This document shows, in pieces, positions 1 through 35,598 of a stretch of 38,835 bases of DNA. The stretch is from assembly GCA_016748015.1 (NCBI GenBank), contig JAAOMT010000454.1:5441-44275 (forward strand). Reading direction: 5' to 3'. The notes beneath the pieces were generated by a model. The model was not told the origin of the DNA. It saw only the letters and a list, made by a program, of their open reading frames with translations, and searched no databases. The position numbers were made by a program, and so were the translations under genes. Positions within the stretch are counted from its first letter, which is position 1. Each line of letters begins with the position of its first letter. The DNA is from Geosiphon pyriformis (taxonomy: Eukaryota > Glomeromycota > Glomeromycetes > Archaeosporales > Geosiphonaceae).

Positions 1-355
1 GAAATTACATTTAACAAAAATTTCTCATTACTTATGTAAATAAAAGCAAAGAAAAATTACAAACACTAGCAGAAACACTAAGAAAAATACAATCACCTAC
101 TTGGAAGAAACCAAAAGTTGTCTCTCTTATACACCTATCATACTATTATATTTCAAGAAATATCATTAACATAATATTAGCAGGCATGTTCACATCAACT
201 GTAAAATCACTGATAGCTAAAATTCTATTTCAGAGTAAACTAAAAAAAGCAAAACTATTGGGAACCTATGACAAGTATTTTGAGGAATTTAATTTATGAC
301 TTACAATGTTATTAGAACATTGGTCACCATTATCACAACTGGATTTTGGAATTAC
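1..355 (+). pseudogene. Gypsy-A gag fragment (N-terminal ORF end)
   Basis: An open stretch from base 15 to the TGA at 297-299 encodes about 95 residues ending in YDKYFEEFNL. The same ending occurs in the other two Gypsy-A copies: FERFNL on the minus strand at 15777 and FEEFKL on the plus strand at 37141. Conserved inner words include TYVNKSK, QSPTWKK and LFQSK. After the stop, nucleotide similarity to 37144-37200 continues to about base 355 (GGATTTTGGAA), where it ends abruptly and LINE sequence begins. It is the first part of gag of an LTR retrotransposon, truncated by the window edge on the left and by the LINE junction on the right. Its function before the capsid domain is not known to me. 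Confidence 0.8.
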
Positions 356-367
356 CAGCCCTTATTT

Positions 368-1993
368 CGGTTTTGTGGTAGGATACCCATGTCTGCCATT
401 CTTGGTAAGTCTAGATTTGTCAGGTTCCTTCCTTCACTCCGGCAATATGGCATTGTCTTTGTTAACCAACTCCGTGATCATTATAGTGCTGTGTTTGACT
501 GATACAAGTTCAAGTGGTAGAAGAGGTTGGACCCCTGTGGCCCGACTCCTGAATGGTTTATGCTTTCTGTCAAGTTCCTGTCTAGTGCGTCTTCTCCTCG
601 TGCCCCTTCTTCTGCTTTGGTTAATGTGGGTCCTTAGAGTATTTTCATTTCTCCTGGCTTTGTGTTAGTTTGTGATCGGCTTTCCCAAGTTCCTTCTAGT
701 AGCATTTCTGTTTATACGGATGGGTCTCTGACACACTTTGGTACCGAGAATTGTGTGGCTGGGACTGGAGTTTTTTTCAGTGACATTGATCTGGATTTGG
801 GTGTTGGAGTTTTGGGTCTGTTGTCTTTTATTTTGGTGGAAATGCAGGCTATTGTGCTGGCACTGGATTGTGTTCTCTGTTCTAGTTTTGTTCATCTGTT
901 CTCTGATAGTCAAGCCACTCTGGATGCCTGCAAGTCGGAATTGGGTTTGGTGCATCCGAATTTTCGCAATTGTTGTTGGGTCAAACACCAGCATATTGTA
1001 AATGTTATTCATGGCAAAAATTTGATGGTTGAATGGCACAAAGTGAAAAATCACTCTGGTGTGATTGAAAATGAACATGCTAATGCTATAGCTGGAACTT
1101 CTTCTTACTCGGGCTGGTTCTTTTCTTCTCATTTGCATGCGCGCTTCTTGTTGGCAGACGGTGGGACTGTTTTTGGCAATTCTAGACATTTTGTTCGCGA
1201 TATTTTTCGTTCCATCAGTTGTGCACACTGGGAGGTTGGTTCTGGTTCTAAATTTCTGCCAGCCAGTTTGTTCGCAGACATTAATTGGTCCTGCTCCTTA
1301 CTGGTATGGCATCTTGATTCACACATGGCTGCTGGCCACACTAGCAGGCCCACAGCAGATGCGCGCAGTTTTTTTATGAAGGCATTGCACCACCAGCTGC
1401 CTGTTACTGTTCATAAATGCCGATATAACAGAAGATACCCCAACGTATTGTGCTTATATTGTGGTGAGGTGGAGACATCAGATCATGCTTTCTCTTGCAA
1501 AGTTAATGACTCTGCGTGTCTTCAGATACTGGATACATGTTCAAGATTTTGGAGGGTGCTTTCTGGCCTGTCTCTCTCTTCTTCCTGCATGCTGCAATTG
1601 TTGTCTTCTTGTGCTTCTGATGTCTCTGTATTTACAGCTTTTTTTAAAGGGTTTGTTTTTAGTGAGTGGCTTCATGAAGCTGTCTCTGTTTTCAAATCTC
1701 ACAAGATTGCTAGTTCAAATATTGTTGAGTTTGTGCATTCCCTTAGTTTTGCTTTTAGGAATAATATTTGGTTGGTTCAGATTAGGCATCGTGTATTCAT
1801 GGAAAAAAATAATCTCATCCCACTTGATAATTCAGTTCCTGTCTTGGTTTCAGACTTGGCTTCTAGGTTTTTGGCTAGTGTCGTTAGGCTACTTGGTGTG
1901 GCTAAAGCTCTTGGCATTCATTTTGGCTTTCGTAAACAATGTTTTTTCTTTTCTGGTGCTGGCAATTCTGTTTTGGTATATATAACTGCGTAG
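368..1993 (+). pseudogene. LINE ORF2 C-terminus: RNase H and zinc motif
   Basis: One frame runs from RFCGRIPMSAILGKSRF at about 368 to the TAG at 1991-1993, broken by TGA and TAG codons near 500-515 and another stop near 634; the last 443 codons are open. An RNase H domain follows: VYTDGSL (about 711), the Glu in LVEMQAIVLALD (about 840), SDSQATLDAC (about 905) and the end motif ENEHANAIAG (about 1070). The fourth position is Asn where the family normally has Asp, so the nuclease is probably inactive. Downstream is a Cys/His cluster, CLYCGEVETSDHAFSC (1450-1500, C-x2-C-x7-H-x4-C), typical of this LINE group. The protein ends SVLVYITA. The RT and endonuclease domains are absent because of 5' truncation. 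Confidence 0.88.
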
Positions 1994-2136
1994 TGTTGTC
2001 CTGATCAGCCTGAGTGGCTGGTCGCATGTAGAAAGAGCATGATTCATACTTAATTTATGTCAATTCTTTGATGTATAGCTTTAGGTAGTGTTAAGATCTC
2101 ATTCATAAAACGTAATAAAAAAAAAAAAAAAAAAAA
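1994..2136 (+). repeat. LINE 3' tail and poly(A)
   Basis: This non-coding tail follows the ORF2 stop. It contains GGCTGGTCGCATGTAG, the hairpin at 2025-2041, and ends with 20 A. The same tail type recurs near 4400-4550 and 5690-5820 on the plus strand, and near 8245-8379 and 11115-11250 on the minus strand. Confidence 0.8.
2025..2041 (+). other. LINE 3' tail hairpin, copy 1
   Basis: CATGT, loop AGAAAGA, GCATG: a 5-bp stem (one G-U pair) closing a 7-nt loop. The geometry is the same in four other tails in this window. It is a candidate recognition element for the LINE reverse transcriptase, by analogy with LINEs that need a 3' stem-loop. Confidence 0.6.
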
Positions 2137-2308
2137 GTTGCAAAAAGTTATAATATTAATTAAAAATAAAAAATTTAAATAAACAATAATTTTAAAAAAC
2201 AAAAAATATATTTAAATTAAGTTATAATTTTTAAAAAAGTAATTATTTTGGTTTTAAAATATTTTTTTTAATTAATAAAAATTATATGCTTTTTGTTTTT
2301 TTAATTTT
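2137..2308. other. AT-rich spacer
   Basis: Low-complexity A/T sequence between the LINE poly(A) and the ORF1-only element. No coding or structural signal is seen. It may hold the 5' leader of the next element. Confidence 0.4.
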
Positions 2309-4408
2309 ATGATTATAATCAGAGCAAAAAGTAAAAAAGCTGTACCCAATATCTTTTTTAAAATATCTAATAAGATTTTAACCAAAAAAGCTCTCTTTAT
2401 TATAAAAGCAATTAAGCAGAATGTTTTAAAAGTCTTTCTCTTACTTAGTAATCATAAAAAGCTGTTTTTAGTAGCTACTAAAGCAATTTTTTTATCTTTG
2501 GCTGGTTTTTTATCAGTCAAAGTTCTTTCAAAGAGACACACTTGGATTAGTTTTAGTATTGTCTTTACTCTAACTAAGAGCCTAAAAGTTTTTAATAATA
2601 GACCAGTAAATAAACTGGTCTTCCTCTTTATAACTTCAATATCTGATGTCTCTAGTATCATTTTTTCAAGAAAAATAATTAAAAAAACCAAAAGTTCAAA
2701 AAAGTGGAAACAGTCACTTGTCTTTGCTATTGTTATACCAAACCTCTTTGTGGTTTTTAATGAGATCTTAGATGAAATCTCTGCTTTATTATCCAGCATG
2801 TTATCCAAAACAGGCCAAAATCAATTACTGACTATATTGTCAAATGTGATGTCTTTTAGCAAATCATTGTCAATTTTAAAAGCAAAGCAATTATCTTCTG
2901 TAATATTATCTGTTCTTGAAAATTGGGCTAATCAGATGGAAATTAATTTATCTCCTTTGGTTTCTGATACTGCTGTTAGTAGTGTTTAAGAAACTATTAC
3001 TAATTATTAAAGATTTGTTGGGTGAGTGGCCTCCACTCTAGTTCCTGATGCTACTTTTAAGATCAAATTGGCTCATGTTAAGGCTGTTTTTTAGTTTGTA
3101 TATGGTTTTTTGAATTCAAAGTCAGTATTAAAAAACAATATAAAGCTTTTCTGTATGGAGTTTGCTTCTTAAAAGTCTTTAGAAACTGCATTTTTGGTTG
3201 AGTTTACAAGCTTTATTCATTTGGTCACTCTTAAAATTACCAAGTTTTTGGTAGTTTCTGAGTTTGGTTTCCCTTTTGCTGCTGTTGTGCTGTATAATAT
3301 GCCTTTAAGTATGTCTGCTGCTAATATTAAGACAGTTTTAAGTATGTTTGGTAATGTTTTCTGTATTGTACTAAAGCCTGCTGGTGTTTGGTAATATGTA
3401 ATTGTTTATTTTCGATTCTACTGTGTTTGTTTTGAATTATTGGTTAGCTTTGGTAGATAAAAATAGTGTTAGGATTTCCCTCTTAATAAATCAAAATAAG
3501 ACTATTCTGTTTTATGATAAGTTTAAGGCCAAGTTGGTCAAACTTTCTTCTAGTTATACAGTTTTTAAAATTAGTAATATAATTTTTCAAGTTGGTGGTC
3601 AGACATGTTTTATTTCTTACTTTTCTGATTCTGGTTGTCATTTTAAGTTTGCTTTGATAATATTGGATGTTATGATTTTTAAGATTAATATATTAAGAAA
3701 GTGTTATATTTGATAGAAAACTCCTAGAAATTGGCACTGCTTTTGGTGCCAAGATTTGAACCATTTAGTTTTGAATTGCAAAGTATCTTTATTTTCTTTT
3801 CTTATGACTTCTAAGATATTTAAACTGCATTTAATCAGTTTTCTATTATATGCTAAAGCCTTTGTTCCTCTGGTTTTTTCTGAATTTTTCTCTTTGGTAG
3901 CTCTTATCTCTTCTTCTGTAATTGTTGAAAATTCTTTAATAACTTTTTGGCTTGTGTTTCTGAAATCTAATTTGGCCAAGTTGTTAGCTTTAGTTAAGTT
4001 TATTATTAAATCTGTTGGTGGTTTGGTGACTGCTTTTGAACAATTTATTAAGAGTGATTTTATGTTAAGCAACTATTTAAAAACAAAGTTAATAAGCTTA
4101 TGATATATTTGAGTACTTTTAGCAATTTGTTAGTAAGTTGAAAAAAATAATAATAGTGTTAAAATCTGAATACAGCATGAAAAATATTGATTTATCTAAT
4201 GATTCTAAAGTTTTAATTGAAGTAAGTAATAAAGTATTTAGTAAATTAATAGCATTTTAGAAATTTGAATCTCTTGATGTTAGGTTTAATTCTTTGAAAA
4301 CAGCTGAGTGGCTTATTGGATTGGTTTTTAGTAGTCTTATTTTATTTAATATAGTTTAAAAGATGTTTTCTTTGAGTAAGTTTTTTTCTAAAATAGCATT
4401 AATATAAT
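2309..4408 (+). pseudogene. ORF1-like protein: RRM-like region and CCHC zinc knuckle
   Basis: One frame reads from the ATG at 2309 to about 3394 with stops at 2987 and shortly after; it then shifts by one base and continues from 3402 past 4100. The N-terminal 220 residues are basic and Ser-rich. An RRM-like part includes AAVVLYNMPLSMSAANIKTV (about 3270-3330) and LKPAGVW (about 3375). A second similar part contains KDSVRI- and FKAKLV-type motifs. A CCHC knuckle, CFWCQDLNHLVLNC, sits at 3738-3779 (C-x2-C-x4-H-x4-C, intact). The C-terminal words KTAEWLIGL (about 4298) and MFSLSKFFSK (about 4362) recur in the minus-strand copy near 11300. It is probably a nucleic-acid-binding ORF1 protein of the retroelement. 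At least two TGA/TAG stops stand where Trp is expected. Confidence 0.7.
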
Positions 4409-4438
4409 ATAATCTGAACTGGCTCAAGTAGTTAGTTA

Positions 4439-4455
4439 CATGTAGAAAATGTGTG
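4439..4455 (+). other. LINE 3' tail hairpin, copy 2
   Basis: CATGT, loop AGAAAAT, GTGTG: the same 5-7-5 layout as at 2025, held by Watson-Crick and G-U pairs after transitions. It belongs to the ORF1-only element. Confidence 0.5.
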
Positions 4456-4532
4456 AACCCTATTTAGCCCTAAAATACTTAGTTTGCTTTTAATTTCTAA
4501 ATAAGAGTTAAGTCTTACTTATTAAAAGCATA

Positions 4533-4549
4533 ATATATATATATATATA
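4533..4549. repeat. (AT)n microsatellite
   Basis: A short uninterrupted TA/AT dinucleotide run at the end of the ORF1-only element tail. It may descend from its A-rich end. Confidence 0.7.
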
Positions 4550-5633
4550 GTTAAGACTAATAAAAATTAAACAATATAATAACAAAAAAATAAATTTAAA
4601 ACTGTGTTATTTATTTTGTTTATGTATATAATTGTTTATAATTTTAAAAATCCTTTAAATAAATCTAAAAAAATTTATATTATAAATTATATATATTATT
4701 ATTATTAATATAATATAAAATATAATTATTTATTTTAAAAATAAAAAAATTTTGAATTAAATTTATTATATTATTTGTGTTTTTAGTAAAAATTAATTTT
4801 TAATGAATTAAATTAAATTTAGTTAAAGATTTTTTAATAAATTCTAAAAATATATGTTTTTTAAAATTAATTAGTCTTATTTTATTAATTTTTATGTCAA
4901 AAAAAATGTTTTTATCTTCTATATAATTATTTTTAATAGTAAATTATAAATTTAAATAGTTGTTTTTGGCCAAATTTTTGGTTATAATATATTTTATTTA
5001 ATGTTTTTTTAATTTATTTCTTTATTAATAAATAAATTTTTTAAAATATATTAAGCTTTTGTTTAATTAAATCTTATTAATATTTTTTAAGTTAGATATT
5101 ATATTTTTATTTGTTGTTTTTTTTCAGTTTACAGCTTTTTTTAATCTTAATTTTTAATTTTAATATGATTTTAGACAATATTTTTAAGAAAACTATTAAT
5201 ATATTGTTTATAAACTTTGGTATTTCTGTTTTTATAATATTTAAGTTAAAATATTTTAAAGCTAAATTAACTAAACTTTCAGATTTTTAATATTGTGTTA
5301 TTAAAATTTAATAAAATATTCTTAAAAATAAGTTATAAATACTCTTTTTTTAATAATTAATTTAATTTAAAAAATTATTATATGCAATATTAAAAATATA
5401 AAAAATATTGTTAAGTAAATTAATATTAATAAATAATATAAAAATAATTAAAATTTAATTATTATAAATTTAAAGACTAAATTAAATTTTAAATTATAAA
5501 TAAATTTAAAAAAATTAAAGTTTTTGTTTTAATTTAAATTTTAGTTATTTAAAATTTAGTATTATAATTATTGTAAACAATAATTTAATTAAATATATAT
5601 ATAAGATTTTAAAAATAAATTGGCTCAAGGATT
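4550..5633. other. AT-rich region, probably an eroded LINE
   Basis: More than 1 kb of almost pure A/T with no usable frame. It runs directly into a recognisable LINE C-terminus and 3' tail at 5634-5820, so it is probably the fully decayed body of that LINE. I cannot identify individual domains. Confidence 0.4.
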
Positions 5634-5820
5634 AATTATTTGTTTTTTGCCAGTATAGTTAGAAATATTTTAGTTAATATAGTTACATAGTATTGTTTTG
5701 ATTGGCTAAGTGGCTGGTTATATATAGCAAATATGTGAATCCTATTTAATTTAGAACTTTAGATAGTTGTATTATATTAGATAGTAATTGGGTTTCACTC
5801 ATAAAATAAAAATAAATAAA
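5634..5820 (+). mobile_element. LINE 3' remnant (copy 2)
   Basis: The end of an ORF2 frame is visible as FFASIVRNILVNIVT and a TAG near 5688, matching the ending FFFSGAGNSVLVYITA of the LINE at 1993. The LINE 3' tail follows, with TGGCTAAGTGGCTGGT (5703-5718), the hairpin position at 5721-5737 and GGTTTCACTCATAAAAT near 5790. It is older and more AT-shifted than copy 1. Confidence 0.65.
5721..5737 (+). other. LINE 3' tail hairpin, copy 3
   Basis: TATAT, loop AGCAAAT, ATGTG: the layout is kept and all five positions still pair as RNA (A-U or G-U), although several C and G have become T and A. Confidence 0.45.
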
Positions 5821-5821
5821 T

Positions 5822-6030
5822 TAATAAATTAATTAATAATTGCTATTTAAATATAAATTTTTTGTTATTGTTTTAAGATTAAATATTAATATTTTTTTAA
5901 ATATATAATTGGCTTAGATAAATAAATTTTTTTTGTTATTTTAGATGACAATTTTAATAAAAATAAATTTAAAAAAGTATTGATTTTATAATAAATAATA
6001 TTACTTATAAAGTAATATAAAAAAAATAAT
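5822..6030. other. AT-rich spacer
   Basis: About 200 bases of A/T-rich DNA between the LINE remnant and Tigger-1. No feature seen. Confidence 0.4.
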
Positions 6031-8244: not shown

Positions 8245-8331
8245 TTTTTTTTTATTTACAATTTAATGAGTGTAGCCCAATCACTACCTAATATACAGAG
8301 TCAAAACTATGAACTCCAGCTATATGTGATT

Positions 8332-8348
8332 CATGTGCTTACTACATG
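8332..8348 (-). other. LINE 3' tail hairpin, copy 4
   Basis: On the minus strand CATGT, loop AGTAAGC, ACATG: a perfect 5-bp stem and 7-nt loop. It is preceded by GTGACTGGTCA as in the other tails. Confidence 0.6.
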
Positions 8349-8379
8349 TGACCAGTCACTTGGACTAATCAAAGTAACA

Positions 8380-10771
8380 CTATGCACTTATATGAATAGA
8401 CACCATGTTAAACAAACTGAAAAAAAACAAATAAGCTCTATGAAAACCAAAACTCACTCCAAAAGAATTATCAATACCAATCAACCTAACTATGCCATCT
8501 GACAAACCTCGCTCTAAGCCATAATGAACCAATGACAACACCCCTGAGTTACCAACCAAAATGTTTCTTTCCATGTTAGCCCTGAATCTGGACCTGAACC
8601 CTTACAACTCAGAATAGTAACTTGTACCCACACTTCACACAAAGTCAACCAGAACCTGGGTAGTCTCTTTGTAATTCACAAAAATCTGCACAGCTTCCTT
8701 AAACCATTCTGTCAGCACAAAGCTTTTATAAAGAAGAGCATACAAGCTGACATCAGACATACATGAGAGAAGAGAATCTAAGACCACAAAAGAAGCTAGA
8801 AGACAAAAACCAGCCAAAAACCTCCAAGTTAATACACACTTAAATAGAATCTCCTTACAGGAGATGGATTTCTTGCCACAGGTAAACATGTAATCAGAAA
8901 ACTCAACTTCTCCACATTGTAAACACAAAACTTCAGGGTAGTTTTTGTTATAAAGCCTCTTTTTAATCATGACAAGTAGTCTGCCATATACCACTTTTAT
9001 GAAATAAGAGTGCAAACCAGCCAAATGTCTACTCATAGAACCTGAAAACATACCTGAATCTGGATGCCAGACAGTCATGATTCAAACCTAGTTAACGTCA
9101 CAAATCAAAAAACCACTCAAAATCTTAGAACCAAAATCAACTTCTCAGTGCATGCAATTCATAAATCTAAAAATGTTCCGAACAAAGTGTCAAACGTTGC
9201 CAGAAATCAGCATGCTATTGGTCATTAAAAAGTGTTTATGTATATTAATCAGCAAAAACAGAGAGAAATGAGCAGAAATGCTCGCCAATACATCTGCATG
9301 AACATTACTCAGCACACTGAAGTGTTCTTTGACCTTTAACCAGCTCATAGAAATGTCTTTTTGAACAATTAAATTCGCAATATGTCTTCTCTTCATTCAA
9401 CAACAATTATGAAAATTAGGGCCATCTGATCTTGATTCTGAAACACATGTATCTAAGACAGCTTGGCTGTCCAAGCACACCTCTACTGAACAAAAGAAAG
9501 GTACACACTCCAGCACCAAGGCAACAGTCTGCAACTCAGCCATTGTAGAAGACAATAGACCTATAACTCTAACCCCAATGCCCAACCCAATCTTAGAAAA
9601 AAACATCGCAATACTTCCAGCCACATCAACAGAGCCAAACTTCTTCAAAGAGCCATCTGTGAAAACAGAAATAGAATCTGACCAGACCTCAAGCAAACTA
9701 TTTTTAACAGCAGAAAACTGATCCAAAAGCAAAACATCATTGACATCCACCAAAAAATTGCTATTGAACAGAGTTAACAAAAAAACCTTATCATGCAAGA
9801 ATCTTGACACCAATATAAACCAAAAAGGCACAAGTCCCCTGAGATCCAGTCTCTTCCAATGACAGAATGTTTACTAATTCAGGACTTTATCTTGTTTATC
9901 TAAAAGTCTATCACAGAAAGCTACACTAAATCTTTTTAAAGAACTAACTTGATCATAGTACAAAAAAGGCCCTAAAACACCAAAGACAGGATATTTGCCA
10001 GGACTAAGAAAAGCATTAAGCAAATTATTCATCATAAAAATCTTATTGATTAAAAAAATACACACTATCCCAGCCAGAAAGTTGTTAGAAAGACCAACAC
10101 GCAGCCTTACAGAGAATTGCAGAGAATTAAGAGGGGTCCAGCCCAAAATCTGCAAATCCAGAAAGTGGTACTTAAAAAACTGACCAACAATTCCAGAAGA
10201 ATTAGAAAAACTCATGACAGAAGAAGACTTCCATTTAGCTTGAACTTGTTTAAACATTTTCAGACCATAAAGTAAAGGATAATAGAGCACCTCATTCAAA
10301 AAATCTTAAGACAAACCAGCCTTTGACTTGAAGCCTTTTCTAACCAGACCATTCCAACACTAACAAACAGCAGAAGACACAAAACTAAATTGTGTACAAT
10401 AGTTAACAATAGGCTGAAGTACAGCTAACACCAAATACATGAATTGTTTGTCTGAAATAGCTTTATATAGCATCATATTTGAAAAGAATTTGACATCAGA
10501 CTGAGCTTTAGCCAGGCTGGGCTTGGACAAACCATCAGTTAACAAAAATATACCCAAATACCTATGAGGCACACCATGTTTAGCAATTAAAATAAACAAC
10601 CCACTGATTTTGAAAACAGCATTTCAAACTCTTTGGTTAATAAGAATGGCTACTGTTTTGTCATTATTAATTAAAATATTATTAATTGCAAAGAACTTAC
10701 TAGCAATGTCCAATATAAATTGTGTAGCAGCCTGATTACTCCCAATCCAGATAGTATCATCAACAAAAGCT
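8380..10771 (-). pseudogene. LINE ORF2: RT core end, thumb, RNase H, zinc motif
   Basis: In order on the minus strand: RT catalytic motif FVDD (Val-Asp-Asp at 10756-10764, intact); the RT segment HRYLGIFLLTDGLSKPSLAK (about 10570-10510); connection domain (10299-9874); RNase H with VFTDGSLKKFG (about 9665), the Glu in AELQTVALVLE (about 9540), LDSQAVLDTC (about 9465) and VHADVLA (about 9290, Asp kept); then a Cys/His motif, CLQCGEVEFSDYMFTC, where the family His is Tyr; C-terminus SIHISA. Several stops and frameshifts break the frame (near 10310, 9860, 9080 and 8600). The endonuclease and most of the RT are absent through 5' truncation. Confidence 0.85.
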
Positions 10772-10779
10772 AATTGTAT
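10772..10779. repeat. Target-site duplication of LINE copy 3, right
   Basis: AATTGTAT directly after the truncated 5' end of the LINE. Confidence 0.8.
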
Positions 10780-11114
10780 ATAATATAAATAACAAATCAA
10801 ATATTAAAAGTTAGCAAATAATATAATATTAAAATTTTAAAAAACCAAAAAAAATTTTAAAAATATTAGAAATTTTAATAATAATTTAATAATATATAAA
10901 AATTACTAAAAATTTTAAATTTTTGTATTATAAAAATTTATATTATAATAGTAATTTTAAAAACAAAAAAAAACATTAAATTATTAATTTATTTAATTTA
11001 AAAGTTAATAAATTTAGTATTTAAAACAAAGTTTTTATTTAATAAAAACACAATTATTATTTATAATTAAATTATTTATTAAAATTGTATATATATGTAA
11101 ATTATTTTATTAAT
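10780..11114. other. AT-rich region
   Basis: Over 300 bases of A/T low-complexity DNA right of the LINE insertion. It is presumably the former flank of Tigger-1. No coding signal. Confidence 0.4.
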
Positions 11115-11425
11115 AATTTTTTATTTTTTATTTGCTTAACAAGTGTAGCCCAAAAACAATCTAGTACTATATATCAAAGAAATAATCTAAACTAAATGTT
11201 AATCATGTACTTTCTACACGTAACTAATTATTCAGACCAATTAAGAACACACTATGCTAATGCCACAGAAGAAAACTTATTCAAAGATGACATTTTTTAA
11301 ATGACAGAAAACAAAGTTGTACTGCAAGAAACTAAACCAACTAGCTATTTGGCAATTTTAAAGTGATCAGTTTTAACATTAACAGACTCATGCTCCCAAA
11401 GAAACATTAGATTGGAAATTAATAA
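11115..11425 (-). mobile_element. ORF1-only element tail (copy 2), minus strand
   Basis: Reading the minus strand from about 11425, the frame gives VFLWEHESVNVKTDHFKIAK, then LVGLVSCSTTLFSVI and KMSSLNKFSS. This parallels the ORF1 C-terminus at 4260-4400 (ESLDVRFNSLKTAEWLIGL, then KMFSLSKFFSK). The LINE-type tail follows at once with its hairpin (11204-11220) and GGGCTACACTTGTTAAG. The remainder of the element is missing or unrecognisable to the right. It shows that ORF1 joined directly to the LINE tail is not a one-off. Confidence 0.65.
11204..11220 (-). other. LINE 3' tail hairpin, copy 5
   Basis: On the minus strand CGTGT, loop AGAAAGT, ACATG: a 5-bp stem with one G-U pair and a 7-nt loop. 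Confidence 0.55.
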
Positions 11426-11998
11426 TTACTTATTTTTAATATTAAACTTATTAAAATAATCAATATTAATAGTATTTATTTAAAAAATTTAATAAATTTA
11501 AACCAATAACTTTAATTATAATTATTAACAAAATATTAATTTTTTATTTATTTATTTTTGTATTATTATTATTTTGTTTTTGTTTTGTTATTATTTAATT
11601 AATTAATTAATTTAAAAAAGTGTTAAAATTAAAAGATTAAAAATTGTTTGGTAAAAATATAAAAATAAATATAAGATTAAGTTATTAATAATTGAATTAC
11701 TTATTAAAAAAATAAAAAATACTAGAATAAATTAATCATTATGCCAAAAAAATTTAATACTAAATATTGTTAATTATTACTACTTAAATTTTTGTTTATT
11801 ATACAAAAAACTTAAAAATCTTTTTTTGTTGATTTTTTAGTCACAATAAGAGTTAAAATATATTAAAAAAATAAATTTTTTACATCTTTTTCCTATTTAG
11901 TTTTACAGTTATTTTTTTTAATTTATCTTTGTTTATGGTTATAGAACTAATAAGTTTTTTTTGTTAATAAGTTGAGTTTTGGTTTTGCTAAATTGAAG
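11426..11998. other. AT-rich region before LINE-F
   Basis: Nearly 600 bases of A/T-rich DNA without a supported gene. It may include the 5' untranslated region of the LINE whose ORF1 begins near 12.0 kb; I cannot place its 5' end. Confidence 0.35.
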
Positions 11999-12985
11999 AT
12001 CCATTTTAACACAAAAAAAAACAAGTAAAGAGTATTTACTCTTATAATACTTCCTACAAAAAACCAAAAAAGCTTAATGTTGAAATTAATATAATTAAGT
12101 CATCTGTTGGTTTTTTCAGTTTATTAATTTGTGTATTGATAGTATTAAGCCTGTTAAATTTTAGATAGCAAAGTTATAAGTAAAATAAGTAATATTAATA
12201 AAATCTTAGATGTAGAAAACATAAAAAATACAATTACAGAAAAGACTAGTTATATAAATTTGAATGCTTTAAAAATAGATAATATTATACTTAGAAAGAT
12301 ATATACTAAGACTTATATTTTGAACAGTCAGCCAAAAAAAATTTTTTTTAACAATTTAAATGATAATAATAATAATAATTTTGATACTTCTGGTTCCTAA
12401 GTTTTCTGAATTCAATTATTTATTATTAACTAAATTATATGTCTTAAAAAAACAAAGTTTTAATTCAGCAAAATTTTTTATATTTGATATTAAGCTATCA
12501 ACTGTGTATAAAAAACTTTTAGAAATAAATTAATAACAGTAAAAAAATTTTTTATTACATTGATAGTTTTAAAAAAGTTTTTAATTTCTCAAAATTTCCA
12601 AAAATTATTAAATCATTCTTTACATTTAAATTGAGCTTGAACAAAGTTAAAAAATTAACTGTCAATAAAAAATCTTGGTAAATAATAAAATAAAAAAGAT
12701 AAACAATTATAAAAATTAAGAAATAATTATTAAGGAAATTTTAGTTGATTTTCTTAAATTGGTTATAGAATTAGTTTTTTCTAAATTTGGCAAAATTATA
12801 TCAATTAAGATATAGCTTATTAGTCTTTAACAAAAGACTTTAATAGAATTTAAGTCTGCTAATATTGCTAATTTAGTTTTAATTAAGTGATTAATTTTTA
12901 TGAATAAAAATTCTGTACATATAATTAAAGTTGTTAATAATAAACAAACATAAATGTTTACGAATTAGCATTAGACTTTGCTATA
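11999..12985 (+). pseudogene. LINE-F ORF1, N-terminal part
   Basis: Scattered but collinear protein words remain: SYKKPKKLNVEI (about 12050), INKILDVENIKNTITEKTSY (about 12195), KTYILNSQPKKIFFNNLNDN (about 12310), VKKLTVNKKSW (about 12648), VIELVFSKFGKIISIKI (about 12765) and IEFKSANIANLVL (about 12846). It ends at LLY, where Tigger-2 is inserted in a TA. Frameshifts and stops are numerous. From family knowledge this is the ORF1 nucleic-acid-binding protein of a LINE found in arbuscular mycorrhizal fungi. This subtype differs from the ORF1 at 2309. Confidence 0.65.
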
Positions 12986-20478: not shown

Positions 20479-20499
20479 GATTATAAAGAGAGTTTACTG
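20479..20499 (-). repeat. Tigger-2 right terminal inverted repeat
   Basis: Reverse complement starts CAGTAAACTCTC and matches the left end at 19 of 21 positions. Internal TATAGTT words lie at about 20427 and 20445. Confidence 0.85.
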
Positions 20500-21310
20500 T
20501 ATATCTTATTAATTAACACTATTATTCATAATTTTTCTAATTTATTGGCTTTATATAATAAAAAAACTTGTTTCATTGGTCATAATTCAAGTTTATATGG
20601 ATGTAACCAGTATATAATTGTTTTTTTTGCTAATAAAACATTAAAAAAAACTGCTATTAGTTCTATTTTAATGTTTAATAATGTGAATTTGCACTGAATT
20701 AACTTATTATTAGTTTTTTGTTTTTAGTATAAACAATTTGATCATGTTTTTATTATGTATTTTAGTGATAAAAATTTAAGTAGTTATAATAAAAGACCAG
20801 TTTTATTCCAAAATCAAATATATTTGGCCAACATATATAAAATAAAACAGATTACTATAGTCAATCCAATCTTTTTTGGTAAAACTTGGGCTTAAATTGC
20901 CAGTAGCTCTTCATTTTTTTTTGTATAAAATAATTTCTTGAAAATTGGCTTTTTTTAGAGAAAAAACTTTTTTACTAATTATATTAAAGATGAATAAAAA
21001 ATTGCTGTTTTTAAATACAGTTTTACCAATTTTATAGAATAAGTTAATAAATTAATAAAGAGATTGAACATATTTGGGCCAATAATTTTCCAGTTTAGTT
21101 TTAGATGTTAACTATAAATGATCTTTTTATTACAGAATCAAAGAGTAAATACAATAATAAGTAAGAGTTTGAATGTAATTACTAATAATAAAACTGTTAT
21201 AAGAGTAGAATTTTTTAATATATTAATTATTTTCAAATGAAAGAACAATATAAATAATTTGTTAAAAATAGTTATAAGTCTGTTGGTTAAAATAAAAAAT
21301 AAAAGTTTGG
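20500..21310 (+). pseudogene. LINE-F ORF1, C-terminal part (RRM-like and knuckle)
   Basis: The frame resumes after Tigger-2 with LINTIIHNFSNLL, then KKTCFIGHNSS (about 20560) and IIVFFANKTLKKTAISSI (about 20610). A CCHC knuckle position lies near 20718-20760, but two of its Cys codons have become Tyr (TGT to TAT), leaving FDHVFIMY. Then PIFFGKTWAQIASSSS (about 20865, with a stop for Gln) and a C-terminal helical tail to about 21310. Joining LLY before the transposon to LINTIIH after it restores the family order. Confidence 0.65.
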
Positions 21311-21344
21311 GTTCAAATATCTTTACTTAATAATAATTAATCTG

Positions 21345-23044
21345 ATCTAAAAAATAACTACATGTAATATTCTTAATATTAATGTTTTTGCTAAATAAAA
21401 TAATATTGTTTATTAATATGTAGGCTTAAATAACATAATTTTTATTATTATAAAAACAAAATTAAGATTTAATATTAAGTCATAGATTATAAATAAGTTT
21501 GATAAAATCTGGATTTTTATATCTGATTTGAATATGAGTTTTTTTTGGTATTAATATAATAATTATTATAAACAGTTTTTTGGCTTATTATGTTTTAAAA
21601 GTTAATAAAATTCTAGACAAGATTATTTTAATTTAATTTTTGTTTAAAAATAAGCTCTTAGTTATAGTTTTGAAGTTATATATTGATGTTTTTACTAAAA
21701 CTAAATTTTAAACAAAAATTAAAGATCAATTTTTTTATTGTTAAAACAGTTAATTACAATACTTTTGTAGTTTTAGGCAGAAATTTCAATAAGAATAAAT
21801 CCAAAAAAAGTACAAGTTTCAAATTTTGCTTGAATATAAATTTAGTTAATTCATTTAATAAATATCTATTAATTAAAACTTCTATTTAAAACAATTTTAA
21901 AAGTGTTGAAAAGGTAGTAGATTTTGTGTTTGTAAATAAAATCTTAGTTTTTGCAGTTATAAACCATAAAGTTAATAGTATATCTGAGTTTTTTAATATA
22001 AATTACAAAACAGCTTCAGTTTTAGTTAATTTAAGTAGTTTCTTAAATGTTTATCTTAATAAAATTTATAAGTAAATCAATAAAAATTGATAAAAGTTTA
22101 AGATAAAAAATAAAGATAAGATCAAATGAATAAAATTTAAGAGGTGTTTTTTAAACATTAGTATAGTGAATATAATTGTTTAAAAAACAAACAATCATCA
22201 AGATTTTTTGAATTAAAACTGCTTATTGCTAAAATTGTTAAAAAGTTGAATTTAAAAGATCTTTTAAAATTTGGGCATTTTGTTGAAACTTAATTGACTA
22301 TTAATTATATTGAAACTTTTAAAGTAATTAACATAGTTTAAAATAATATAAAATCAAAAAACATTATTAAATATTTGTAAGTAGTTATGAATAAATATCA
22401 AAAATTTAAGTATTATAAGTCAAAAACATTAGAAAATATGATAATTAAAAAGACTATTAAATAACATATAGAGAGTTTTTGCTTTAACAAAAACAAATAA
22501 TAAAAAGTATTCTAAAACAATTTTTTTGCAAAGTTATTTTAGATTATTTAATTGTTGAGAAAAAATTGGTTGTAAAATCTAATAAGATAAAACTTAAAAT
22601 TAATGAAATTATAGAAAAATAAATAAAAAAAGGTTTGTGTTTTTAAGAATGTTTGATTTTTGGTTTTGCCAATATTTGTCTTTGAATTATGTAAATAATA
22701 GTGTATTTTTTGGTGTAATAAAGAAGATTGACATGAATAAATTGGTTTTGATGATTTATGATTTGCTTGGTAATAAAACTGTCATATTCTAAATAAACTT
22801 TGGAAATATTATAGTAAAGTTGTTTTAAAATGTCTTTTGAATTTGTTGAATTTTTGTTTGGTTTTAAATAATGTTCCAGTTTCTTGAAAGAAAATGTGAG
22901 TTTTAATAATTTCTAAGCCTTATAAATAAGATGATATTTTAATTAACATTTAATTTATTGTATTAATTAAGACAGCAAGAAAGATTTTGTTTAAAATTTT
23001 TTAATTAAATTTTTTTTACATGTAATAAATTTGGTGTTCTTTGA
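21345..23044 (+). pseudogene. LINE-F ORF2 part 1: endonuclease and pre-RT region
   Basis: An APE-type endonuclease is recognisable from KFDKIWIFISDLNMSFF (about 21500) and KTVNYNTFVVLGRNFNKN (about 21745). The last is the GDFN motif of such nucleases, with the catalytic Asp replaced by Asn (codon AAT at 21782-21784). Then KKSTSFKFCLNINLVNSF. The linker contains WFSDFD- and IKSVLERPF-like blocks that are heavily eroded (about 22150-22620). The RT N-terminus begins near 22640 (DFWFCQYLSLNYVNN) and reaches CNKFGVL at 23035, where the solo LTR interrupts it. The ORF2 start itself is not certain. Confidence 0.65.
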
Positions 23045-24003: not shown

Positions 24004-24173
24004 ATAATAAAAACTTTTTAATATATAAGAATATCTTAACTTAATCTCTTATTTTTACTATTAAGTCAGTTGTTAAAAATGCTCTAAAAAAAATAAGGAG
24101 CTTTAATTAATTTTATGTTTTAATAGAATAATATTATTTAAAAACTAGTTTGCAGCATATTAAAATATGTAAT
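24004..24173 (+). pseudogene. LINE-F ORF2 part 2: RT fingers/palm
   Basis: The frame gives FLIYKNILT, SLIFTIKSVVKNALKKNKEL and LKTSLQHIKICN, collinear with the RT of the same LINE family between the two interruptions. A stop replaces the Trp after KNKEL (TAA). The piece ends in the GTAA(T) target duplication of Gypsy-B. Confidence 0.65.
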
Positions 24174-35030: not shown

Positions 35031-35598
35031 GTAATTAGTTTATTAAGTTTTTTGACAATATATAGAAACAGAATTAATAAAGTAATAATTAATTTTGGAC
35101 TTTTAAATAGTTATAGAGTACATAATAGATTAAATTAAGATAAAGTTTTTTCTTTTTTTTTTAGAAAATTTTCTATGATCTTCTTTTGTGTAAAGTTAAG
35201 AGATATAAACACTTGTGTAAATATTGAATTAATACTAAATTTGTGGTCAAGACTGGCAAAATTAAAGATAATGAAGGAAAGACATTATTTTTTACTGTTA
35301 GTGCTTTGTTGATAACACAATTTGGGTTAAGAATTATCAAACTTCTATGCAGTATATTTTAAATATTACTAGTAAGTTTTTTAATATTAATAATATTTCA
35401 ATTAATAATAAAAAAATAGTTGTTATTTCTATTAACCAAAGTATTAAAACTGCTTTGCTAATAATTAGTAACTTGTTTATTTTGATTGTTAAAAAAGATA
35501 AATTGTATAAGTGCTTGAAAATATTTTTATTAACTAAAAATTTTTCTAAGTCTAATATAGCTTAAGCTTATACTAATGTCAGGTTTTTTTTAATGTAA
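35031..35598 (+). pseudogene. LINE-F ORF2 part 3: RT palm with FVDN, thumb
   Basis: The frame continues FIKFFDNIYRNRINKVIINF (about 35041) and SYRVHNRLN, then a TAA where the family has Gln. It passes to the catalytic motif, which reads Val-Asp-Asn at 35308-35316 against Val-Asp-Asp in the copy at 10756, with a one-base deletion just upstream. The open stretch 35347-35565 (SKFFNINNISINNKKIVVIS and LYKCLKIFLLTKNFSKSNIA) aligns along its length with the thumb region of LINE copy 3. Similarity continues to VRFFFN at 35596, where the Gypsy-A LTR starts. Confidence 0.8.

Follow-up and report, generated by a model that had tools for sequence, protein, structure and literature searches.

A multi-copy ORF1-only LINE family ending in a structured LINE 3'UTR in the genome of Geosiphon pyriformis

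To our knowledge, clearly multiplying LINEs that carry ORF1 only are known mainly from mammals (HAL1) and from Drosophila telomeres (HeT-A). No description of an ORF1-only LINE in a fungus was found among the titles and abstract openings of the literature searched, whose coverage was partial. In the available portions of the sources, HAL1 is described as encoding only ORF1p and as deriving from L1 (PMC5753468), and HeT-A as lacking the enzymes to transpose, forming head-to-tail arrays at telomeres and depending on other elements (PMC5537684). LINEs whose copying requires the 3'UTR, and SINEs with tails in common with such LINEs, are also described (PMC3747384). The words 'autonomous' and 'ORF1' do not occur in the accessible part of PMC11075540.

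The elements analysed here, referred to as half-LINEs, resemble HAL1 in being LINE-like, in encoding the ORF1 protein only and in probably depending on a LINE for the enzyme (PMC5753468, PMC4161310; both in part). Whereas HAL1 is an L1 derivative (PMC5753468), the half-LINE ORF1, which includes a zinc knuckle, shares only 26-29% identity with the LINE ORF1s read and appears to be a lineage apart; the half-LINE ends in a structured 3'UTR that LINEs also have. With HeT-A (and TART/TAHRE), half-LINEs share a non-LTR nature, an enzyme thought to be supplied by other elements and head-to-tail arrays (PMC5537684, in part), but they are not telomere-confined, their 3'UTR is short and target duplications are present. 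SINE/LINE pairs with stringent 3'-tail recognition, for example in eel (PMC3747384, in part), are likewise non-autonomous elements bearing the structured 3' end of a LINE; unlike these SINEs, half-LINEs encode a 708-aa protein that selection has kept. The resident LINE-F and LINE-B elements have an RRM-type ORF1 and a homologous tail, and LINE-F has a pyrimidine-rich leader, but both carry ORF2 (endonuclease, RT and RNase H), which half-LINEs lack.

The window, a stretch of 38,835 nucleotides from contig JAAOMT010000454.1, contains its main half-LINE at 2289-4535 on the forward strand, followed by a short A/T run (Table 1). The ORF1 start codon proposed in a preliminary description of this DNA was confirmed as an ATG at 2309. 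ORF1 abuts the LINE tail without intervening sequence, which bears out the earlier claim that the two meet directly with no endonuclease or RT between them. The reading frame is open over 2279-2989 and is then interrupted by stops and frameshifts, with 10 in-frame stops in 694 aligned codons and a tblastn frame switch near 3411. Identity to the intact ORF1 of L038 (L-numbers denote genome loci that were fetched and read) was 61% over residues 1-370 and 41% over residues 372-605. The 12-base repeat TAATAAAAATTA stands on both sides of the element and is weak alone, as 16% of mispaired flanks score as high.

The ORF1 had also been described as of RRM/CCHC type. This was upheld for the intact relatives by Pfam: in L038 both RRM_1 (E 3.5e-6) and the CCHC zinc knuckle (E 5.4e-5) scored over the curated cut-offs, and in L039 both fell just under them. 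The broken ORF1 pieces of the window gave no RRM and only a sub-threshold knuckle match (E 0.025). Comparison of the half-LINE ORF1 with solved structures returned a single weak match (E 0.006, residues 320-375).

A second junction, noted earlier on the minus strand at 11115-11425, proved real and belongs to a 5'-truncated copy that aligns to half-LINE element positions 1896-2283. Its tail lies in subfamily HLb (group mean identity to LINE tails 70%) and that of the main copy in HLc2 (59%); because the tails belong to different subfamilies, the two copies are separate insertions, as had been supposed. Elsewhere in the window, 12167-12950, 20479-22998, 24015-24173 and 35049-35592 are pieces of one LINE (ORF1, endonuclease, RT), ordered and on the forward strand, and the gaps of about 7.5 kb and 11 kb between them suggest nested insertions.

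Table 1. Half-LINE and LINE features in the window (coordinates count from the first nucleotide of the window)
Feature	Position	Strand	Remarks
5'-truncated ORF2 LINE (RNase H, tail 1988-2126, poly(A))	350..2136	+	Head-to-tail upstream of the half-LINE
Probable 5' target-site duplication, TAATAAAAATTA	2273..2284	+	Followed by 4 extra bases; mispaired fraction 0.16, not significant alone
20-nt pyrimidine-rich 5' leader	2289..2308	+	Start common to the family; younger copies have CTCTTTGTCTCCTTAATTTT, decayed in this copy
Decayed ORF1	2309..4407	+	Stops and frameshifts; 708 codons in intact relatives L038 and L039
CCHC zinc knuckle, CFWCQDLNHLVLNC	3738..3779	+	Read from the translation; Pfam zf-CCHC above the curated cut-off in L038, below it in L039
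3'UTR tail	4404..4535	+	Homologous to LINE 3'UTR; conserved RNA helices (predicted)
A/T-rich 3' end	4536..4557	+	AT repeats instead of poly(A)
Probable 3' target-site duplication, TAATAAAAATTA	4558..4569	+	
Third tail end, short 5'-truncated copy	5668..5822	+	Absent from the preliminary description
ORF2 LINE fragment (RT end to RNase H, tail 8246-8385)	8246..10785	-	
Second half-LINE copy, 5'-truncated (ORF1 C-terminus and tail)	11116..11487	-	Different tail subfamily

The genome searched comprised 124.7 Mb in 406 contigs and was AT-rich in the stretches read. Copy numbers are rough, pattern counts excepted, because the searches score only the best candidates. With window segment 3900-4550 as the query, the best 40 of 515 candidates were scored; the 39 besides the window were 72-78% identical, and 38 of them extended beyond query position 505, where the tail starts. 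Sixteen of the 39 were fetched; ten of these align colinearly with the window between about 2290 and the tail, and six match over less of it. The ten colinear copies have one abrupt start near CTYTTTGTCTYCTTAATTTTATG, with some decay, and unrelated flanks except in the segmental duplicates L006 and L009; a transcript of an active element would be expected to begin at CTCTTTGTCTCC and end at the tail.

Because these matches had been picked by the junction, the test was repeated from the 5' end. The 5' piece 2279-2989 gave 1,166 candidates, of which the best 40 were scored and 16 of the 39 others fetched. The tail was downstream in 15 of these 16 loci, including L031, where an internal insertion precedes it, and no tail was seen in the stretch read at L028. 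A 27-base 5' signature, searched with at most 2 mismatches, gave 291 matches (155 forward, 136 reverse) against 0 for the reversed-pattern control. Twenty exact plus-strand signature matches were sampled and the stretch 2.08-2.60 kb downstream of each was read. The tail was found in 18, at the expected place in 16 and slightly early in two (L056, L070); L059 and L071 had neither tail nor LINE protein match in that stretch. Copies chosen by their 5' end therefore keep ORF1 followed by the tail in both samples and share a common start, which is what the preliminary description had anticipated.

A comparison of ORF2 proteins against 66 half-LINE loci, made up of 46 wider ones plus 20 short 3' pieces, found no ORF2 piece between ORF1 and tail at any of them. 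ORF2 fragments at these loci lay only before the 5' start or after the tail; at L021 one match begins inside the tail and continues into the truncated LINE that follows. Measured from the 5' start to where the tail profile ends, the 39 elements that have both ends span 2,224-2,284 nt, with a median of 2,280. The layout is a 20-nt pyrimidine-rich leader, a single ORF, a 3'UTR of about 135 nt and poly(A), and in L038 a 708-codon ORF starts 20 nt from the 5' end and stops at the tail start. The family is thus multi-copy, with a common 5' start, ORF1 only and neither EN nor RT, as in a half-LINE of the HAL1 type. It is not limited to contig ends, copies lying deep in long contigs (e.g. C330:1791784 of 2.34 Mb). 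The fixed ends, the length and the 291 signature matches support the interpretation offered earlier, that of a replicating non-autonomous family and not a single deletion.

Several loci showed individual peculiarities. The 3' or 5' flanks of L006, L009, L016 and L022 are nearly the same, so these loci lie in segmental duplications. At L022:3212-4300 none of the three forward frames meets a stop for about 350 codons, which probably reflects the insertion of a tandem repeat into the half-LINE. L023 is a mosaic: its first 1.2 kb is nearest the young subfamily (83-89%), and the similarity drops sharply over the 3' part and the tail, a pattern that template switching could have produced.

A mixed profile had first located 26 ORF2-LINE tails. 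A profile made from half-LINE tails alone recovered all 26 (E 7e-31 to 7e-24) and, at E up to 10, matched none of 156 controls (130 shuffled, 26 reversed). The tail was present in three of three LINE-B elements, and L100 was the one exception, without a tail, among 27 ORF2 3' ends looked at. The stop codons of half-LINE ORF1 and LINE ORF2 both sit at the tail start, and the shared part is therefore the LINE 3'UTR. Group-mean identity between half-LINE and LINE tails was 56-70%, against 83% for LINE-F tails among themselves. Pairing each half-LINE tail subfamily with one LINE tail failed across these means, only HLb being somewhat closer (70%) to LINE-F tails.

The tail is predicted to fold into hairpins. 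In 36 aligned tails, the same alignment from which the structure was derived, 93.2% of cells were standard pairs and 123 cells were changed on both sides; neither value was reached in 500 shuffles, and slid versions paired at 34-37%. Counted as pairs, those changed on both sides were not more numerous than in shuffles (16 vs 15.2; 214 of 500). Half-LINE-only (18 of 21) and LINE-only (13 of 15) alignments gave the same two hairpins, at columns 16-23/29-36 and 38-42/50-54, and the same stem at columns 58-66/96-105 or one column less. Half-LINE tails alone did not yield the outer closing stem, which appears only when LINE tails are included. Judged from these alignments, the half-LINE tail and the 3'UTR of ORF2-bearing LINEs are homologous and are predicted to fold alike, with covariation.

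ORF2 LINEs are abundant in the genome, with 6,428 candidates for the RNase H end and 3,777 for a stretch near RT. L113, a possible partner LINE, encodes endonuclease, RT and RNase H. Some open frames of the LINE-B group reach 1,285-1,379 codons; all three LINE-B copies read have at least one break in ORF2, and a completely intact ORF2 was not encountered. All eight autonomous LINEs read have a different ORF1. Half-LINE and LINE ORF1s are homologues (E 2e-26, with 26% identity across 304 aa), at 26-29% identity for five LINE-F and, equally, for three LINE-B elements. For scale, identity to L038 is 63% for L050 and 74% for L051, both half-LINE copies from another subfamily, and LINE-B ORF1s are 41-43% identical to that of L034. 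No autonomous LINE with the half-LINE ORF1 was found among the eight read, the genome search behind them scoring the best candidates only. The LINE-F leader, CTTCTTTCTCTCCTT or in L034 CTCTTTTTCTCCTT, resembles that of half-LINEs, and the LINE-F 5' end gave 232 matches with at most 3 mismatches (control 0).

Because the ORF1s of all eight LINEs are only 26-29% identical to it, the half-LINE ORF1 is read as a separate lineage; these comparisons indicate an independent descent, and not the ORF1 of a resident LINE after recent deletion of ORF2. The comparison made earlier, that the family is to its LINEs what HAL1 is to L1, consequently holds for the way of working and probably not for the origin.

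Zero stops in 708 codons were found in two of 38 aligned copies (L038, L039). The 12 copies of the youngest subfamily differ pairwise by about 9%, about equally at the three codon positions, and C-to-T or G-to-A changes made up 1,113 of 1,432 minority bases; this pattern is one of neutral decay after insertion. Selection was tested by subtracting within-group from between-group differences and by neutral simulation (300 runs). Between subfamilies the net difference was larger at third positions, with a ratio of 1.10-1.63 in six group pairs. Each of ten comparisons with L038 (chosen from 37 possible) showed fewer stops and a higher amino-acid identity than any of the 300 simulations, and the third-position ratio exceeded all simulations in seven of the ten. 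The between-subfamily differences and the simulations show that purifying selection acted on ORF1 in the copies that multiplied and kept it coding between subfamilies.

A short direct repeat of upstream sequence follows the poly(A) of half-LINEs. In a test anchored on the poly(A) end, target duplications of at least 10 bp were found in 14 of 32 elements compared with 23 of 992 mispaired flanks, and of at least 12 bp in 7 of 32 compared with 6 of 992; they were absent altogether in 9 of the 32. The duplications looked for in the preliminary description are thus present in part of the family. An edge test that required contact of the duplication with the 5' start gave no signal (mean 4.82 vs 4.71). 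In the 14 elements with at least 10 bp, a mostly A-rich gap of 2-25 bases separates the upstream copy from the 5' start, and the base immediately 5' of the start is A in 33 of 39. The filler between upstream duplication and 5' start was observed to vary between copies (L038-L051, L072-L091) from 2 to about 30 mostly A-rich bases, perhaps untemplated bases from 5'-end joining. Features of target-primed reverse transcription products were found: a poly(A) or A-rich 3' end, target duplications of variable length and, at window 11116-11487, a 5'-truncated copy with an intact 3' end.

Neighbouring tails were counted around the half-LINE ends. Within 300 bp upstream of 63 5' ends, 14 same-strand tails end (one of them, L072, weak, and some loci being segmental duplicates) and none on the opposite strand. 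Around 56 3' ends, 9 facing and 2 other tails lay within 300 bp. The contrast between facing and other tails is biased, since a neighbour that faces away has its tail a whole element off. In all, the 35.7 kb examined within 300 bp of half-LINE ends contained 23 neighbouring tails that face the end, compared with 4 tails in about 39 kb further out. Half-LINEs adjoining the tail of another LINE were observed at window 1988-2289 and at L006, L013, L020, L022, L024, L031, L039, L044, L081, L082 and L087; at L036, outside the 63, a half-LINE begins right at a LINE poly(A).

Taken at the level of sequence, half-LINEs form a retroposed ORF1-only family of fixed length, kept coding, with poly(A), target duplications and a LINE 3'UTR at the end. 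The explanation we favour, with a probability of about 0.88, is a replicating non-autonomous half-LINE made of the leader, an ORF1 of its own that encodes an RRM and a zinc knuckle, and the structured 3'UTR of the resident LINEs; the ORF2 protein of a LINE would copy it in trans. ORF1 protein translated from the transcript would coat that same RNA. An autonomous LINE would contribute the ORF2 protein, comprising endonuclease, RT and RNase H, which would recognise the shared tail fold and copy the RNA into A/T-rich sites by target-primed reverse transcription. The best reading of how the element works is therefore by analogy with mammalian HAL1 or Drosophila HeT-A, the enzyme presumably being supplied in trans.

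Among the alternatives, a rare autonomous LINE with the same ORF1 and an ORF2 may exist or have existed recently, the short copies being its repeated internal-deletion products. HAL1 did arise from its parent LINE (PMC5753468, in the part available), and just eight autonomous LINEs were read, in searches that score best candidates only. Such a source is nevertheless improbable, given that all eight have another ORF1 at 26-29% identity, that the short copies have one length and one junction at the stop codon and that no ORF2 piece lies inside any of the 66 loci searched. Poly(A) and target duplications would equally be expected of retrocopies of a host RNA-binding gene that had acquired a LINE tail and whose protein has no role in copying; the homology of ORF1 to LINE ORF1 (E 2e-26), a 5' leader similar to that of LINE-F and an ORF1 that stayed coding across subfamilies make this very unlikely. 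That the copies are independent deletions of full LINEs, alike by chance, is scarcely credible: non-autonomous internal-deletion elements are known for R2 (PMC3414825, in part), but here junction, 5' end and length are constant across subfamilies about 25% different, ORF1 is of a different lineage, and the common ends and the count of the 27-base signature speak against it.

Beyond the favoured reading of a non-autonomous element copied in trans, a wider arrangement can be put forward tentatively, and is rather doubtful as a whole. LINE replication in this genome may be split between LINEs that bear the enzymes and elements that have ORF1 alone and make an RNA-packaging protein of their own, diverged and under selection, with one structured tail uniting the two and each landing preferentially at the A-rich 3' ends of the other. 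If such landing occurs, it would build head-to-tail clusters in chromosome interiors, as HeT-A does at telomeres. Half-LINEs may also explain repeated RRM/zinc-knuckle genes that annotation could mistake for host genes. With a large family, an ORF open from end to end in some members, an independent ORF1 under selection and a shared folded tail, it can be asked directly why a borrower of ORF2 keeps an ORF1 of its own, and whether the ORF1 protein acts in cis on the RNA that encodes it.
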